Source: Candidatus Fermentibacterota bacterium (GTDB lineage Bacteria; JAFGKV01). Taken from it: DNA of 6,351 nucleotides. Position numbers and translations under genes: made by a program. The notes below the pieces were generated by a model. That model was given only the letters and a program-made list of their open reading frames with translations. It searched no databases and was not told where the DNA came from. Where the stretch lies: NCBI GenBank assembly GCA_030620115.1, contig JAUXFG010000197.1:1-6351 (forward strand), given 5' to 3'. This document shows, piece after piece, positions 186 to 6,351 of the stretch; position 1 is the stretch's first letter; every line of letters starts with the position of its first letter.

Positions 186-2984
186 CTATTGGCTCACGCT
201 TGTCTCGTACCTCACACCTTCCGGTACATAAACAGGGACATTTACCGTGATGCCGTGATCACCCGCCGTCTTCTCCAGGCCGTCCACCGCCAGGAAGGCC
301 GTATAGCGACAGATCAATCCATAGTCGATGGATGTTTTGATGATCTCTGCTTTCAGTGCATCCGAGGAAGCATAGGTCTCCTGCTCTGAGAGATCGGCGA
401 TTTTCCACCGCGCCCATACGCTACGGATGCCTTGGTGCTCTGTTTCAGTGTTGCTCATATTGACGCGGAGGGAGACAGTTCGGCTTTCTCCGCCAGTGCG
501 TCCGAATAGCTTCACTTTGGTCGACCCCTTGCCTTTGAAACGACCTGTAATCACTATTGGTCGGCCCACAAGGAGATCAGGGATCTTTTTGGGGTACACG
601 TCAGTCACTTCCATGTTGCCCCAATCGATTTCGATATCCGCCATGGCCGGGCGCGTGGCACGCTCGTAGAACTGATCTACCTTGTCGCCCGTGTTGTCGT
701 GAAGCCCCACATATGCGACCGCGCCTCGCCCGAGCTTGGCCATGTGTTCCAATAGATAGCGATTCACCGAAGTCCCGACGCCAAAACTGAAGATCCGCGC
801 TGATTTGACTTTTTCCTGTACTGCTGCCAGGATCTCTGATTCATTCCCTATGTAGCCGTCGGTCATGAATGAGACGATGCGAAGCCGGTTCTCGTCATGA
901 GGAAAATCCAATGCGGCTCTGACGCCACGGATCATCATAGTGCCGCCGTCCGCCCGTAGACCATTTATGAACTGAAATGCACGTTGGACGTTTTCTGGGG
1001 TTGCCGCCACGGGTGTCGGGCCGAACCTGGAGGCGGAGTTCGAGAAGCGGATGATCTGGAACGTATCGTGCTCATCCAAGTTCCGTAGACACTGCCGCAT
1101 GGCTGCTTTGGCCTTGGAAATGGGTTCACCTGTCATACTTCCTGAGCAGTCGACGACAAACACCATCTCCCGGGGCATACGGGGCAGATCCTTGAGATCA
1201 GCCGGTGGCTGTAGAACAAGGGCGAAGTAGTTTCCATCTTCAGCGCGATGGACCATCATAGCGGTTTTCGTTTTGTTTCCCGCAGTCCTGTATCGCAGCA
1301 CAAAATCCTTGTCAGGTAAACGATCGGTAGGGCTCAGTCCCACGATAGCCCGCGACTTGCCTCTTTTTTCGATCTCGATCTTGTGGCTCTTGCTGTAGAT
1401 CTCCTCGATAGCAACGCCGGCATCAATATCCACCTCTATGGCGATATCATGCCCACTTGGTTCCCCAGGCTTCAGGTACTCGACCTCTACGGGCTGTCCC
1501 GACTTGCCGTCTTTCCTCCGTGTCACCGCAGCGATACCGTCCTGCCATCCCGGCGGATTGAACCGTGGCCCCACAACGGTCGGAAAGATGAACTCATACT
1601 CGCCATCCACGTACTTCAAAGGATTGAAGAATGTTGTCTGTACTTCGATGTCCTTTCCTGGTTCGATGTTTGCCACCCGCTGTGTGAAGATGTTCGGTCG
1701 CTCCTGGGTAAGGAGCGCGGCTTTGTGGCCCCTGGCCTTGGCTTCCTGATAGATCCTCTTCGCCTCCTCCCGTTCCCGTATCAGGCCACGGATTCGTCTA
1801 TCACCAATGATCATGAGGAAATCCGTCACTGCTGAACTCTGCGGTAATGGGAATACGTAGACCGCCTCTATCTTGGTATCATATGGATTATGATACTGCT
1901 GGGTTACCTCAACCGTGGCAATGAAAACATCGATCCTCGCCTTCACATCCGTATGCTTCAGAGGCAGAGGAATCTCTTTCTCTTGCTCCGGCAGCTTCGC
2001 TTTCAACAGCGGAGCCTCGTAATCGCTTTCTTCCACCGACCCATCAGATCGCTCAATGATCCAGATTTCGGTATCGAGACCAGTGGTCTCCCATGGATCA
2101 CGCTTTCTCTCAGGCCGACGTGTTTTCTTGATGCGAGGGGGCCCGGGTGGCGGTACGGTCTCCACGCCCTCACGGCTCGTCATCCTGCTGGTAGCCGTGA
2201 CATCCGGACGGATGAGTGGTGGCCGTTCAGCCTGCACTTCTACAGGTGACATGGGTCGGGGTTCCATAGCGGGAAGCGGTTCTGGCATGCATGGTTCGAC
2301 CTCTGGGGATGGCTTATGGACGGTCATACCGTCAACGATAATTGTCGTCTCGCCAGCACGCCCCCCTCTCATATGAACATCGTTCTCTCGATCCTTTGCT
2401 GAGGATTGGGCTTTCATTGCTTCCTCAGGGATGGCCTCCATTATGCTTTCGATGGACTCTCCTCGGATATCTCTGCGCGAGTCCGTAACGTCAGTCTGAA
2501 TAAGAGGCCTTTCAGCCACTACCGCGATTTCTTCCCCTTGGATGACTTTCTCCCTCATCCAGATTGGCCCGAGATGAGTAGTCAAGTCGCTGGAAACAGA
2601 GACATCAGTGATTCTGACATCTGAAAATCCGATCATGCAAGCTCGAAGGGTATGGCTCCCGGGCGGAACGCCCACAATGAAGAAATCACCATGCTCATCC
2701 GCCACAGCTCCCAAGGTGGCCCCTTCTACCACGATTTGTACGTACCGAAGGGGGTTCCCCTCTTGATCGATGGTCTTGCCGGTGATTTTTCCATTTCTGC
2801 CTGTTGGAACTTGTCTCTCGACCGGCTCGGGCGTTTTTGCGACAGGCCCCTCAGCAACGCCTTCAGCGGTCTCCTCCGGCCCACGTCCAGCCAAACTCTG
2901 CAAGAACCCACAGCCGACAAATGACAATGACACGATGACGAAAAGGAATACAAGAATAGTCCGGTACTTCATCGTTGCTTTCAT
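186..2984 (-). CDS. VIT and VWA domain lipoprotein with N-terminal carboxypeptidase-regulatory-like and TonB-plug-like segments
   Basis: A 932-residue envelope protein. The ATG at 2984 overlaps the upstream stop by 1 nt (TGATG); a GTG one codon earlier is possible but less likely. Residues 6-24 are a hydrophobic signal ending in SFVGC, so Cys25 is the probable lipidation site; Gly follows it, which by the E. coli rule suggests outer-membrane sorting. Residues 66-139 resemble a carboxypeptidase-regulatory-like beta-sandwich (GKITGKTIDQEGNPL, VGVPPGSHTL). Residues 150-222 resemble the start of a TonB-dependent receptor plug (AERPLIQTDVT, then MRGGRAGETTIIVDGMTV), but no beta-barrel follows. A Pro-rich linker at 223-300 carries a second AERP-type copy at 248-283. 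The VIT domain covers about 334-465. The VWA domain starts near 606 with an intact MIDAS: DCSGS (D612, S614, S616), T682 and D709 in MTDG. RYTAFLAVD at 893-901 is typical of the C-terminus of VIT/VWA proteins. VWA domains usually bind protein ligands through a divalent cation. It is the last gene of the operon; ligand and function are unknown. Confidence 0.92.
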   Translation of the reverse strand: MKATMKYRTILVFLFVIVSLSFVGCGFLQSLAGRGPEETAEGVAEGPVAKTPEPVERQVPTGRNGKITGKTIDQEGNPLRYVQIVVEGATLGAVADEHGDFFIVGVPPGSHTLRACMIGFSDVRITDVSVSSDLTTHLGPIWMREKVIQGEEIAVVAERPLIQTDVTDSRRDIRGESIESIMEAIPEEAMKAQSSAKDRENDVHMRGGRAGETTIIVDGMTVHKPSPEVEPCMPEPLPAMEPRPMSPVEVQAERPPLIRPDVTATSRMTSREGVETVPPPGPPRIKKTRRPERKRDPWETTGLDTEIWIIERSDGSVEESDYEAPLLKAKLPEQEKEIPLPLKHTDVKARIDVFIATVEVTQQYHNPYDTKIEAVYVFPLPQSSAVTDFLMIIGDRRIRGLIREREEAKRIYQEAKARGHKAALLTQERPNIFTQRVANIEPGKDIEVQTTFFNPLKYVDGEYEFIFPTVVGPRFNPPGWQDGIAAVTRRKDGKSGQPVEVEYLKPGEPSGHDIAIEVDIDAGVAIEEIYSKSHKIEIEKRGKSRAIVGLSPTDRLPDKDFVLRYRTAGNKTKTAMMVHRAEDGNYFALVLQPPADLKDLPRMPREMVFVVDCSGSMTGEPISKAKAAMRQCLRNLDEHDTFQIIRFSNSASRFGPTPVAATPENVQRAFQFINGLRADGGTMMIRGVRAALDFPHDENRLRIVSFMTDGYIGNESEILAAVQEKVKSARIFSFGVGTSVNRYLLEHMAKLGRGAVAYVGLHDNTGDKVDQFYERATRPAMADIEIDWGNMEVTDVYPKKIPDLLVGRPIVITGRFKGKGSTKVKLFGRTGGESRTVSLRVNMSNTETEHQGIRSVWARWKIADLSEQETYASSDALKAEIIKTSIDYGLICRYTAFLAVDGLEKTAGDHGITVNVPVYVPEGVRYETSVSQ

Positions 2985-3469
2985 CACTCACCACCTTTCT
3001 CTTCCTTGGTCATGGTGTCGCTGTTCGCGGGCTCCAGATCCACCTTTGCCTTGATCCGCTGCCCTCCTGGCTCCGCGGCCGTGATCAGTCGTATTCCGAG
3101 GTCAGGTTGGCCTTCTCCCTCGATTCGAAGATGGCTCCTCGCCACGCGTGTTCTGCCTTGAGGAGCATTCTTGTGATCTGTCGTGAACGCGGCGAGAATA
3201 AGCCTGCCGCCTGCCAGGCCGCGGGGATCATAGTGGGGAGCGTCCTTGAAGACCTCCACCTCCCCGCCCTCCACACCAACAACCTCCACACGGCTCTTGT
3301 CGAACCTCATCTCGACCTGGTAGGCGACAAGCCTATGCTCCCCGCTGTCCACATACAGATCTATGGCCTGGAAGCGTACTATCGACTCCTGGGCCGTTCG
3401 TGCCTGAACGTCTGAGACTGGGATCGTCCCAGCAATGAGACTGAGTACGAAGATGATCCTCTTCATCAT
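2984..3469 (-). CDS. Secreted cohesin-like domain protein
   Basis: A 161-residue exported protein. MMKRIIFVLSLIAGTIPVSDVQA is a good Sec signal with a likely cleavage after Ala23. The mature part (about 30-145) is beta-rich and reads like a cohesin-type fold: an opening strand IDLYVDSG, then LVAYQVEMRFDKSRVEVVGVEGG, DPRGLAGGRLILAAFTTD and ARSHLRIEGEG. Cohesins bind dockerins in known cellulosome systems. Here the gene immediately upstream encodes a dockerin, which strengthens the call. The tail is hydrophilic, with no anchor or sorting signal. The ATG at 3469 overlaps the anti-sigma stop by 4 nt (ATGA). GGAGGAGG sits at 3478-3471, and its first GGAGG is 7 nt from the second ATG at 3466, so translation may really begin at the second Met. 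The stop overlaps the start of the VIT/VWA gene. Cohesin assignment is by eye at moderate confidence; another immunoglobulin-like fold is possible. Confidence 0.8.
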   Translation of the reverse strand: MMKRIIFVLSLIAGTIPVSDVQARTAQESIVRFQAIDLYVDSGEHRLVAYQVEMRFDKSRVEVVGVEGGEVEVFKDAPHYDPRGLAGGRLILAAFTTDHKNAPQGRTRVARSHLRIEGEGQPDLGIRLITAAEPGGQRIKAKVDLEPANSDTMTKEEKGGE

Positions 3470-4032
3470 GCCTCCTCCACCACTGCCACGGCCGCAAGCG
3501 TCACCACCGCGATGTCTTGCTTGTCAACCGCGCCATCTTTGTTGAGATCCCAATTCTCCGGCGTCTTGATTCCCGACTCAAGGCGGAGAGCCATGAGATA
3601 CGCATCCACGATGTCCACCGCACCATCCCGGTCGACATCTCCCGCATAGCTCACGGATTTCACTATAGTCGGCAGCATCGCCCGATGGGGTGACAATACA
3701 GACCACGTCAGAACCGCCACGGCAATCGCTGCCGCAGCAGCCCATACAGGCCTAGTGAGGAACCTCCTCCGCTTCGGATATCTCCACCGGATTTCCTGGG
3801 ATCGTTGTTCGATGACCGAGAACACGGCCTCATCCGCACGGCTTGGGGTTCCCATCACTGCGGGGCGATTCACTCTGGCATCGACAGCCAGCATGTCCAA
3901 CTCGGCAATGATCTCCTGACAGCGCGGGCATGCCTTCACGTGATCCCGCACAGCCACGGTTGCCTCGCCGGTTCGCGCAGCTTCGAGCTCCATCAGATCG
4001 GGATGCCGTTCAGTCGTGAGTTTCTCGCTCAT
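3466..4032 (-). CDS. Anti-sigma factor: HC2 zinc-binding motif, one membrane span, C-terminal dockerin
   Basis: A 188-residue protein starting MSEKLTTERHP. The ATG at 4032 is preferred because GGAGG lies 8 nt upstream; an in-frame ATG at 4059 would add nine residues and has no comparable site. The cytoplasmic N-terminus has the anti-sigma HX3CX2C motif (H31, C35, C38 in DHVKACPRC), which by family knowledge may bind zinc and clamps an ECF sigma factor. A basic stretch (YPKRRR) precedes one membrane helix at about 95-113. Outside it are two dockerin-type EF-hand loops. GDVDRDGAVDIVD supplies D132, D134, D136, D140 and D143; WDLNKDGAVDKQD supplies D162, N164, D166, D170 and D173. Every side-chain ligand position is acidic or Asn, so Ca2+ binding is likely. 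The gene overlaps the cohesin-like gene by 4 nt, which points to a dockerin-cohesin contact as the sensing step (inference). Its sigma partner is probably the ECF gene at 4534-5067. Confidence 0.9.
   Translation of the reverse strand: MSEKLTTERHPDLMELEAARTGEATVAVRDHVKACPRCQEIIAELDMLAVDARVNRPAVMGTPSRADEAVFSVIEQRSQEIRWRYPKRRRFLTRPVWAAAAAIAVAVLTWSVLSPHRAMLPTIVKSVSYAGDVDRDGAVDIVDAYLMALRLESGIKTPENWDLNKDGAVDKQDIAVVTLAAVAVVEEA
3471..3478 (-). promoter_or_regulatory. Ribosome binding site of the cohesin-like gene, inside the anti-sigma coding end
   Basis: GGAGGAGG on the minus strand also encodes the last Glu codons of the anti-sigma factor. Its first GGAGG is 7 nt from the second in-frame ATG (3466) and only 4 nt from the first ATG (3469), so the second start may be the used one. 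The placement suggests translational coupling of the two genes. Confidence 0.65.
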
Positions 4033-4040
4033 CGTTCTTT

Positions 4041-4045
4041 CCTCC
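4041..4045 (-). promoter_or_regulatory. Ribosome binding site fixing the anti-sigma start
   Basis: On the minus strand GGAGG is followed by 8 nt and then ATG at 4032. This is the strongest Shine-Dalgarno match near the gene and supports the MSEKL start over the ATG at 4059. Confidence 0.75.
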
Positions 4046-4051
4046 GACTCG

Positions 4052-4080
4052 TTAAGCATCGCACATGCCCAAAAGGTTCC
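4052..4080 (-). promoter_or_regulatory. Candidate ECF-type promoter for the anti-sigma/cohesin/VWA operon
   Basis: Reading the minus strand, GGAACC at 4080-4075 is followed after 17 nt by GCTTAA at 4057-4052. This resembles the GGAAC -35 plus TCTAA-like -10 layout of sigma-E type ECF promoters. It overlaps the longer possible start at 4059, so a transcript from here would use the 4032 start. The predicted transcription start would fall very close to the Shine-Dalgarno site, leaving almost no leader, which weakens the call. Confidence 0.3.
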
Positions 4081-4086
4081 CGAGGA

Positions 4087-4120
4087 AATCTGAAATCTTC
4101 AATCTGGCAATCTGGAATCT
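4087..4120. repeat. Five phased AATCT repeats, about 7-bp period
   Basis: AATCT occurs at 4087, 4094, 4101, 4109 and 4116, so the spacing is 7, 7, 8 and 7 bp. The linkers are variable and mostly purine. It lies just upstream of the anti-sigma gene. It may be a degenerate microsatellite or part of a dispersed intergenic repeat; no function is evident. Confidence 0.55.
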
Positions 4121-4203
4121 GAAGAGGAAGAGACGGAAGGAATGGGTGAAGGGATATCTGGCCGGTCATCGAACCTCCAACGTCGAAGTGGAGGATGATG
4201 GAG

Positions 4204-4265
4204 GGCCATGCTCCGTCATGGCCGTTGATGTCCGATACGACGGACGCGATCCGCCAGCTGGCGGA
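4204..4265. repeat. Three consecutive hairpins
   Basis: GGCCATG at 4204-4210 pairs with CATGGCC at 4217-4223 (6-nt loop). GTCCG at 4230-4234 pairs with CGGAC at 4241-4245. TCCGCCAGCTGGCGGA at 4250-4265 is a perfect 16-bp palindrome. Three structures in 62 bp suggest a REP/BIME-like palindromic unit. Confidence 0.55.
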
Positions 4266-4312
4266 CGTCCCTCCAGAGATCCTGATAGCTCGTATTGGAC
4301 GTGACAAGACGT

Positions 4313-4346
4313 GTCATTCTGAGGCAGCAAAGCGACCGAAGAATCT
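4313..4346. repeat. Dispersed repeat-like unit (GTCATTCTGAGG ... GAAGAATCT)
   Basis: The unit begins GTCATTCTGAGG and ends CGACCGAAGAATCT. It contains an ATTCT/AGAAT inverted pair, ATTCT at 4316-4320 and AGAAT at 4340-4344. I recall very similar GTCATTCTGAG...GAAGAATCT units as high-copy intergenic repeats in many uncultured-lineage genomes. That comparison is from memory. Confidence 0.55.
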
Positions 4347-4448
4347 GGGGGAAGGGAATGGGGAAATGCTGAAATGAAGGATAAAGTGAAGGAGGAGAAT
4401 CGATTGAAAGCGTGTGAAGGGAGTAGAAACTAGAAAGCAGTCCTGAGT

Positions 4449-4486
4449 AAACTGATTAAGTTTATGCGCAGGAACTTAATCAGTTT
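4449..4486. repeat. Perfect 14-bp inverted repeat after the sigma gene; possible terminator or attenuator
   Basis: AAACTGATTAAGTT at 4449-4462 pairs perfectly with AACTTAATCAGTTT at 4473-4486 around a 10-nt loop. It lies 48 nt downstream of the sigma factor stop, in the transcript leading to the anti-sigma gene. The stem is A/T-rich and no extra T-run follows it on the minus strand, so it is not a textbook terminator. It could reduce read-through from the sigma gene or be a protein-binding site. Confidence 0.6.
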
Positions 4487-4533
4487 TGGAAAGCAGTTGG
4501 GATGACGTTTTCGTGCCAGGAAACGGGTGCTGT

Positions 4534-5067
4534 TCAGTCGAACTTTGCCCGGAGCTGGGTGAGTGCCCGATGAAGTCTGGATTTGGCGGTTCCGAGTGGG
4601 ATCGAGAGAGTCTCGGCGATTTGTTGCAGGGAGAAATCCTCCGCGAATCGAAGCAGGAGGATTTCCTGTCCGTCTTCGGGGAGCCGGGAAATCATATCGT
4701 AGAAGCCTACACGCGAGGAGGGAGGCGGAGATCCGTTGGTGAGCTTGTCAGTGTGGCGACGTTCCAGCGGCACCACGCGGCGCTGCTTCTTGATCAGGTT
4801 CAATGAGATGTTGCGCGCTACCGGGTACAAGAAGGTCTTGAGCTGACTGCGGAGTTCAAACCCCGGAAACTTGGCGAAGAAGTAGATGAACACTTCCTGC
4901 ACCACATCGAGGGCATCATCCTCGTTCTCGCACACACGGTAGGCCTGGCCATAGACCCAGTCTCTGTGGCGGAAGTAGAGGGCCTTCATGGCCTGAGAAT
5001 CCCCCCGGTTCGCCTCGTCCACGAGATCTAGATCGACTTGGTGCTCAGATGGCTCAATGGCGGTCAT
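4534..5067 (-). CDS. ECF (sigma-70 family) RNA polymerase sigma factor
   Basis: A 177-residue protein of normal ECF length with only regions 2 and 4. Region 2 spans about 18-97: DDALDVVQEVFIYFF matches regions 2.1-2.2, and LKTFLYPVARNISLNLIKKQRR matches 2.3-2.4, which melt and read the -10 element. A short linker at 98-122 is rich in Pro and Ser. Region 4 spans about 123-175 with RLPEDGQEILLLRFAEDFSLQQIAETL and the recognition helix GTAKSRLHRAL, which reads the -35 element. There is no C-terminal extension. The ATG at 5067 has GGGAGA 8 nt upstream. The presumed regulator is the anti-sigma factor at 3466-4032, in the same orientation but about 500 bp away instead of adjacent. It would direct RNA polymerase to envelope-response genes, possibly its own operon (inference). 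Confidence 0.95.
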   Translation of the reverse strand: MTAIEPSEHQVDLDLVDEANRGDSQAMKALYFRHRDWVYGQAYRVCENEDDALDVVQEVFIYFFAKFPGFELRSQLKTFLYPVARNISLNLIKKQRRVVPLERRHTDKLTNGSPPPSSRVGFYDMISRLPEDGQEILLLRFAEDFSLQQIAETLSIPLGTAKSRLHRALTQLRAKFD

Positions 5068-5946: not shown

Positions 5947-6351
5947 ATGAGAAAGGTACTCGTCTTCACGCTGTCCATAGTCGCTCTCGTTGCCGTGGTT
6001 CAATATGGCATTGCAGGCGAGAAGAGCGATTCAGACATCAAGTACCAGACCACTTGCCCGGTCATGGGCGGCGAGATCAACAAGGAGATCTACGAGGATC
6101 ACAACCGGCAACGGGTATATCTGTGTTGTGAAGGCTGCCGTGAGAAGTTCAAGGATGATCCGGAGAAGTACATCGAGAAGCTTGAATCCGAGGGTATCAC
6201 CGTCGCGAAGGTCGAGCCCGCTCAAACGAAATGCCCGGTCACCGGCGAACCCGTAGACAAGAGCATCTTCACGGAGTATGAAGGCAAAAAGGTATACTTT
6301 TGCTGCGCGGGTTGCCGCGACGAATTCGTCAAAGACCCAGAGAAGTATATG
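5947..6351 (+). CDS. Exported protein with two YHS/TRASH-like cysteine domains (3' end beyond the window)
   Basis: An open frame of 135 codons from the ATG at 5947 to the last base, with no stop. Residues 1-23 are a Sec signal (MRKVLVFTLSIVALVAVV, then QYGIA). Two similar domains follow. The first, about 36-79, has TCPVMGG with C37, then YLCCEGC with C60, C61 and C64, then KFKDDPEKYI. The second, from about 95, has KCPVTGE with C96, then YFCCAGC with C119, C120 and C123, then EFVKDPEKYM. The CPV-x(20)-CCxGC-x-DPEKY pattern matches YHS/TRASH-type domains, which are linked to heavy-metal binding and often sit next to copper or other metal transporters. Export implies periplasmic metal binding or delivery (inference). 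A perfect palindrome upstream may be its operator. More copies of the domain could follow past the edge. Confidence 0.9.
   Translation, partial: MRKVLVFTLSIVALVAVVQYGIAGEKSDSDIKYQTTCPVMGGEINKEIYEDHNRQRVYLCCEGCREKFKDDPEKYIEKLESEGITVAKVEPAQTKCPVTGEPVDKSIFTEYEGKKVYFCCAGCRDEFVKDPEKYM

Follow-up and report, generated by a model that had tools for sequence, protein, structure and literature searches.

The contig JAUXFG010000197.1 of a Candidatus Fermentibacterota bacterium, which in its entire length of 6,351 bp is the window analyzed here (G000:C42; three genomes of its phylum are in the comparison set), carries a cassette that combines an extracytoplasmic function (ECF) sigma factor, a membrane anti-sigma factor ending in a dockerin, a secreted protein with a predicted cohesin fold and a VIT/VWA lipoprotein. 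We propose, at a probability of roughly 0.6, that this cassette is a sigma/anti-sigma transmembrane switch whose extracytoplasmic contact is a dedicated cohesin–dockerin pair. A first-pass annotation of the window had described a single locus of four same-strand genes, and all four are present on the minus strand: the sigma factor gene (4534–5067), the anti-sigma/dockerin gene (3466–4032), the cohesin-fold gene (2984–3469) and the lipoprotein gene (186–2984 from its ATG, with a GTG at 2987 as a possible start). The overlaps it reported, 4 nt between the anti-sigma and cohesin genes (3466–3469) and 1 nt between the cohesin and VWA genes (2984), are correct. The locus is not one transcribed block, since a 474-bp gap with a strong hairpin parts the sigma gene from the other three. 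The layout is instead a sigma gene plus a separate three-gene operon with its own promoter.

The secreted protein lies beyond the reach of sequence models. No Pfam family matched it at E ≤ 1, the cohesin model included, and a single-sequence search gave no solved-structure match. Its AlphaFold2 model, made from an alignment of 45 sequences, has a predicted local distance difference test score (pLDDT) of 92.7 and a predicted template modeling score (pTM) of 0.84. When this model was compared with solved structures (Foldseek, VIA-align), the best fold match was chain A of PDB 6KGC (Z 11.0, 116 residues aligned, 2.7 Å), and nearly all of the 50 PDB matches listed are cohesins or cohesin-like modules. 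The model thus points to a divergent cohesin by fold, outside the Pfam sequence family, in agreement with a cohesin-like assignment previously made from sequence alone. The protein carries a signal peptide, as cassette cohesins generally do, with a lipobox found in a distant subgroup (loci L074–L081). It is a single-domain, stand-alone protein and not a scaffold.

The predicted partner of this cohesin is the dockerin of the anti-sigma protein. The latter is composed of a cytoplasmic region with an Hx3Cx2C motif, one transmembrane helix (about residues 96–114) and a C-terminal type I dockerin (3487–3645, minus strand) with two calcium-loop repeats, DVDRDGAVDIVD and DLNKDGAVDKQD. The dockerin had been recognized in the first reading of the window and is confirmed by score, with Dockerin_1 (PF00404) at 34.7 bits against a cut-off of 22.9 and both calcium loops intact. 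The HC2 anti-sigma domain claimed alongside it retains its motif, but zf-HC2 reached 13.9 bits, under the Pfam cut-off of 22.2. The NCBIfam anti-sigma model NF052375 also matches the protein weakly (E 5.5e-6, below its cut-off). Translation very likely starts at an inner ATG at 4032 (MSEKLTTERH..., 188 residues), after the Shine–Dalgarno sequence GGAGG, rather than at the ATG at 4059 from which the gene was first listed (3466–4059), because the latter sits inside the −10 element of the promoter discussed below. Throughout the aligned set, one hydrophobic helix follows basic residues and is followed by 61–257 residues that end in the dockerin. By the positive-inside rule, the dockerin is predicted to face outward, on the outer side of the inner membrane.

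The calcium loops of these dockerins are not equally conserved. The second is kept in 39 of 40 aligned dockerins, and the first, as judged by motif, in 31 of 40. In L023, L064, L069 and L072 the first loop is degenerate or lost, and the helix after it (D-I-V/L-D-A-F/Y) is retained. Cellulosomal dockerins often carry two interchangeable faces (compare the titles of PDB 2VN5 and 2VN6). For the asymmetric cassette dockerin, a single dedicated binding face appears more likely. Three dockerins of the distant subgroup, in L074, L075 and L077, have the first calcium loop replaced by VADC/SGDC, together with proline-rich linkers, and no adjoining VWA gene was found in these loci.

Evidence that cohesin and dockerin belong together comes from their conservation. 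We collected 45 non-redundant loci, of which 17 are from named genomes, 27 from sampled genomes (292 of Planctomycetota, 145 of a second phylum), and one is the window. According to record titles, they derive from Fermentibacteria, Fuerstiella, Planctomycetaceae, Phycisphaerales, Sedimentisphaerales, Verrucomicrobiales, Myxococcales and an unplaced proteobacterium. All 41 judgeable loci have the dockerin/anti-sigma gene immediately upstream of the cohesin gene, and a sigma gene is nearby in 36 of 39, divergent in seven of these. A reverse search of the 292 Planctomycetota genomes with the anti-sigma/dockerin profile found 18 genomes at E ≤ 1e-10, and a cohesin gene stood beside the anti-sigma gene in all 18. 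Seventeen of these were known cohesin loci; the eighteenth was L087, in which a sigma gene and a lipoprotein cohesin adjoin the anti-sigma/dockerin gene. The genes therefore stay together over several phyla, as the first-pass annotation had suggested checking. In seven genomes (the window's G000, G004, G016, G022, G046, G060 and G098), the cassette dockerin is the sole dockerin. There is a negligible probability that a genome's only dockerin and only cohesin would repeatedly be neighbors by coincidence. No cassette relatives were found in the viral contigs searched.

In one genome the two domains are joined. Locus L060 of G016 (5665–6459) encodes an anti-sigma region, a membrane helix, a dockerin and a cohesin in one protein, an arrangement that would put dockerin and cohesin on one side of the membrane and counts as classic fusion evidence that the two are in contact. 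The dockerin–cohesin part of this fusion was modeled as a compact unit (pLDDT 90.9, pTM 0.81). By our own estimate, a loose packing of two domains of this size gives a pTM of about 0.65, and since the model exceeds that value, the relative placement of the two domains is probably meaningful. A structural check of the complex had been proposed; its outcome is a partner with a cohesin fold and a compact fusion, from which physical binding is inferred. Taken together, these observations make it highly probable that the cohesin pairs with the dockerin of the anti-sigma factor. An atypical case is L068, in which a shortened dockerin-like helix runs into the cohesin open reading frame.

The operon carries a candidate promoter of its own. 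In the window, an ECF-type promoter, GGAACCTTTT-N13-GCTTAA, is positioned at 4080–4052 on the minus strand, before the anti-sigma, cohesin and VWA genes, and covers the ATG at 4059. The corresponding motif, [TG]GAACCTTTT-N13-[GC]CTTAA with fixed spacing, stands ahead of the anti-sigma gene in 32 of 41 loci, among them the window. With shuffled regions the same threshold was reached in 2.7 loci on average and in 6 at most. This comparison somewhat favors the motif, as its weight matrix was derived from the very loci being scored. The motif was first seen by eye in the seven loci with a divergent sigma gene and then tested on all; an initial unguided dyad search had found no signal beyond that of shuffled sequences. 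In an independent check with the pattern TGAAC[CG]-N18-C[TG]NNA, 29 of the 49 matches in 960 kb of strand were just upstream of anti-sigma genes. The first three bases of the motif often coincide with the stop codon of the sigma gene, but the motif is not a by-product of this coding end, because it is present in the seven loci where the sigma gene is divergent. Upstream of the sigma gene itself it is generally absent (three strong cases in 35). RpoE-type sigma factors recognize GGAAC/TCTRA promoters, which the cassette motif resembles. These findings argue strongly for control of the anti-sigma/cohesin/VWA operon by the cassette sigma factor.

The exact promoter match occurs once in the window's genome. 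When up to two mismatches were allowed, the genome search gave one other match, with no gene behind it, and a reversed control pattern gave four, so no wider regulon can be claimed. Most simply, the target of the sigma factor would be its own operon.

The sigma factors themselves also form a coherent set. That of the window scores above the Pfam cut-offs for Sigma70_r2 and Sigma70_r4_2 and above the cut-off of TIGR02937. With a profile built for cassette sigmas, it reached 232.8 bits, compared to 125.7 for the next sigma of the same genome. Overall, cassette sigmas scored 210–273 bits, and no other sigma of these genomes exceeded 127, a separation that marks the cassette sigmas as one orthologous group. 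One sigma gene at the end of a contig (G001:C253) scores 210.9 bits, and the contig stops 463 bp later. The contig of L009 starts just upstream of its anti-sigma gene, and the sigma gene that the L009 cassette lacks is probably the one on G001:C253.

The nearest functional parallel is the RpoE–RseA–RseB system of Escherichia coli envelope stress, which likewise has a sigma factor, a one-pass anti-sigma factor, a secreted partner of its outer domain and autoregulation. In the cassette, the cohesin would replace RseB/MucB and the dockerin the periplasmic domain of RseA, whereas a VWA lipoprotein is added to the operon and the sigma gene is often transcribed apart from it. RseB has to leave RseA before DegS can cleave RseA (PMC8103513). 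The cassette is not a member of this family, as neither the anti-sigma factor nor the secreted partner has an RseA or MucB/RseB Pfam match.

Because the layout matches that of RpoE–RseA–RseB, we favor the cohesin as an RseB-type co-regulator. At rest, the anti-sigma factor would hold the sigma factor, and the cohesin would be docked on the dockerin as RseB is on RseA, either shielding the anti-sigma factor from site-1 proteolysis or fixing its conformation. An outside change, such as a cohesin ligand, loss of the cohesin or VWA lipoprotein, or a change in calcium, would alter docking and free the sigma factor. The freed sigma factor would then use its own promoter to transcribe the genes for anti-sigma factor, cohesin and VIT/VWA lipoprotein, with the VWA surface lipoprotein as main output. 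New partner proteins would restore the complex and close a negative-feedback loop. The first-pass annotation had envisaged envelope signaling through a dockerin–cohesin contact; composition, pairing and promoter now speak for it, while binding and its calcium dependence, inhibition of the sigma factor, direction and signal are what we infer.

Several observations weigh against this switch. The cytoplasmic part of the anti-sigma protein is short and has no zinc motif in most cassette members, where an anti-sigma function is suggested by gene position and topology. L014, L021 and L058 have no nearby sigma gene despite enough upstream DNA, and seven of 42 loci have no VWA gene, which is therefore not a core part. 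The pairing model is one covalent fusion chain, judged by pLDDT and pTM. The RseB-like direction of control has analogy as its sole basis and is tentative, at slightly less than even odds.

The main rival of the RseB-like switch is a circuit that monitors assembly. Here the cohesin would chiefly assist the VWA lipoprotein, as its chaperone or structural partner, and unused cohesin would bind the dockerin and keep the sigma factor off, so that the lipoprotein is made only when needed, as in flagellar and secretion anti-sigma systems. The 1-nt overlap of the cohesin and VWA genes and their shared sigma promoter fit such a circuit, as do the seemingly private use of that promoter by the operon in the window's genome and the recurrence of VWA-type lipoproteins, of YfbK type, even in the distant subgroup. 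However, the seven loci without a VWA gene keep sigma, dockerin and cohesin, and nothing points to a second binding face. We consider this circuit unlikely, though it is the strongest of the alternatives.

Alternatively, the dockerin might itself be the sensor. It would fold only with calcium, the cohesin would merely stabilize the folded form, and calcium loss would expose the anti-sigma factor to proteolysis. The near-invariant second loop (39/40) is in line with calcium or envelope sensing, but where the first loop is lost the following helix is kept, which indicates selection for a binding surface rather than for a calcium response. This makes calcium sensing improbable.

A comparably improbable view is that the membrane protein with the dockerin has no anti-sigma function and only anchors the cohesin, with the sigma factor regulating the operon in some other way. 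The short cytoplasmic part that lacks a zinc motif in most loci would suit an anchor. Yet the Hx3Cx2C motif of class I anti-sigma domains is present in the window and in seven further loci (L009, L074–L078 and L081), and a single membrane helix in a protein encoded behind an ECF sigma gene is typical of anti-sigma factors. Anti-sigma domains without zinc are also common (PMC7406223). A degradative complex, cellulosome-like or of 'planctosome' type, with the sigma system regulating its enzymes is very improbable: dockerin and cohesin domains are present and many planctomycetes carry dozens of dockerins, but seven genomes, that of the window among them, have a single dockerin each and hence no dockerin enzymes to assemble, the cohesin is not a scaffold, and the search of the window's genome yielded no further convincing promoter site.

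Returning to the lipoprotein, its description as a VIT/VWA protein is confirmed by a VIT match of 126 bits, VWA above its Pfam cut-off, a lipobox (FVGC) and a MIDAS-like motif (DCSGS...TDG). CarboxypepD_reg is also above its Pfam cut-off, and TIGR03788 matches at E 1.5e-154, just under its cut-off. A VIT/VWA lipoprotein gene follows in 33 of 42 loci and a YfbK-type VWA lipoprotein in two more. No conserved gene was found downstream of the VWA gene. TIGR03788-like proteins occur in 177 of the 292 Planctomycetota genomes; of 19 VIT/VWA loci outside the cassette, nearly all are without a cassette-group sigma beside them and none has a cohesin. On these distributions, the VIT/VWA protein is the usual cargo of the cassette and not its defining part. 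The suggestion that it helps in sensing gained no specific support. Its minimum role is that of a co-transcribed output, and some loci replace it or do without it.

The N-terminus of the window lipoprotein (2400–2800, minus strand) matches the start of SusC/RagA TonB-dependent receptors (TIGR04056, E 5.8e-7). The match takes in the carboxypeptidase-regulatory domain plus a plug-like stretch, with an apparent duplication further along. Signaling to anti-sigma factors is also a property of FecA-type transducers, and given this, the TonB-receptor-like N-terminus may not be chance. In L010 (2509–5652), the VIT/VWA protein bears an N-terminal DUF1329/LolA-like outer-membrane lipoprotein domain. In L098 (G022:C228, 1959–6352), a sigma gene immediately precedes a VIT/VWA gene, and dockerin and cohesin are missing. 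The genome carries the cassette as well, and L098 is possibly a related circuit with another outer domain. Within the distant subgroup, L078, L081 and L087 combine a zinc anti-sigma factor, a long linker, a dockerin and a lipoprotein cohesin. The next gene encodes a YfbK-type VWA lipoprotein in L078 and L081 and a lipoprotein that by eye is DUF4349-like in L087.

Other known systems share parts of this composition. In CnrH–CnrY–CnrX, which responds to nickel and cobalt, a sigma factor, a minimal membrane anti-sigma factor and a periplasmic partner are arranged as in the cassette; CnrX, in contrast, is a metal-binding helical protein, and the Cnr system has no cohesin or dockerin. SigI–RsgI of Clostridium thermocellum and Acetivibrio, hosts known for cohesin–dockerin interactions, also uses a membrane anti-sigma factor with an outer recognition or sensing module. 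RsgI anti-sigma factors bear carbohydrate-binding, PA14 or glycoside hydrolase modules (PMC3413522). They have no dockerins, whereas the cassette has a dockerin, a dedicated cohesin and an ECF sigma, and the Pfam scan found no RsgI_N domain and no SigI-type sigma. Cellulosomal type I pairs (PDB 1OHZ, 6KGC) resemble the cassette in both partner folds. The cassette pair differs in being one-to-one and in a signaling operon, with the dockerin on an anti-sigma factor and a stand-alone secreted cohesin that has no Pfam match. A cellulosome, defined by a scaffoldin and several dockerin enzymes, does not agree with the one dockerin in the whole genome of the window. For planctomycetes, a non-cellulosomal 'planctosome' of very large cohesin and dockerin proteins has been proposed as a peptidase scaffold (PMC6461901); unlike the cassette, that proposal has no sigma or anti-sigma part. 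Both readings were rejected on the several genomes with a single dockerin. The fourth gene belongs with the TIGR03788-like VIT/VWA and YfbK-type VWA lipoproteins, which are common outside the cassette; elsewhere VIT/VWA proteins are mostly unaccompanied by sigma, dockerin or cohesin.

Transmembrane ECF sigma/anti-sigma pairs are known already, and it is cohesin–dockerin docking as the outer contact that is apparently undescribed. No paper was found that joins a dockerin with ECF or planctomycete sigma factors, within a partial literature coverage that leaves room for an earlier mention. On balance, we lean towards an undescribed signaling class in Planctomycetota, Fermentibacteria and beyond, in which ECF anti-sigma factors would be controlled by one-to-one cohesin–dockerin docking and tune a VWA lipoprotein. 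If so, this would be the first use of cohesin–dockerin for signal transduction rather than scaffolding. Cohesins and dockerins are abundant in genomes without a cellulosome, where their role is an old question, and the cassette offers a testable answer for one large group. It also yields a divergent cohesin family missed by sequence searches, and its natural one-to-one pairs with an asymmetric dockerin could be useful as orthogonal parts. The predicted promoter makes the circuit easy to test by reporter.

Two further features of the window lie outside the coding part of the cassette. The gap 3′ of the sigma gene holds an inverted repeat of 19 nt (4449–4486), found by repeat search and predicted to fold as a hairpin of −17.9 kcal/mol (z −4.4). 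It is A/T-rich and has no T run, and may be a terminator, a processing site or a mobile repeat. Positions 5947–6351 on the plus strand hold the first part of a secreted protein that carries two YHS/TRASH metal-binding domains. It is truncated where the contig stops and is, as far as seen, unrelated to the cassette.

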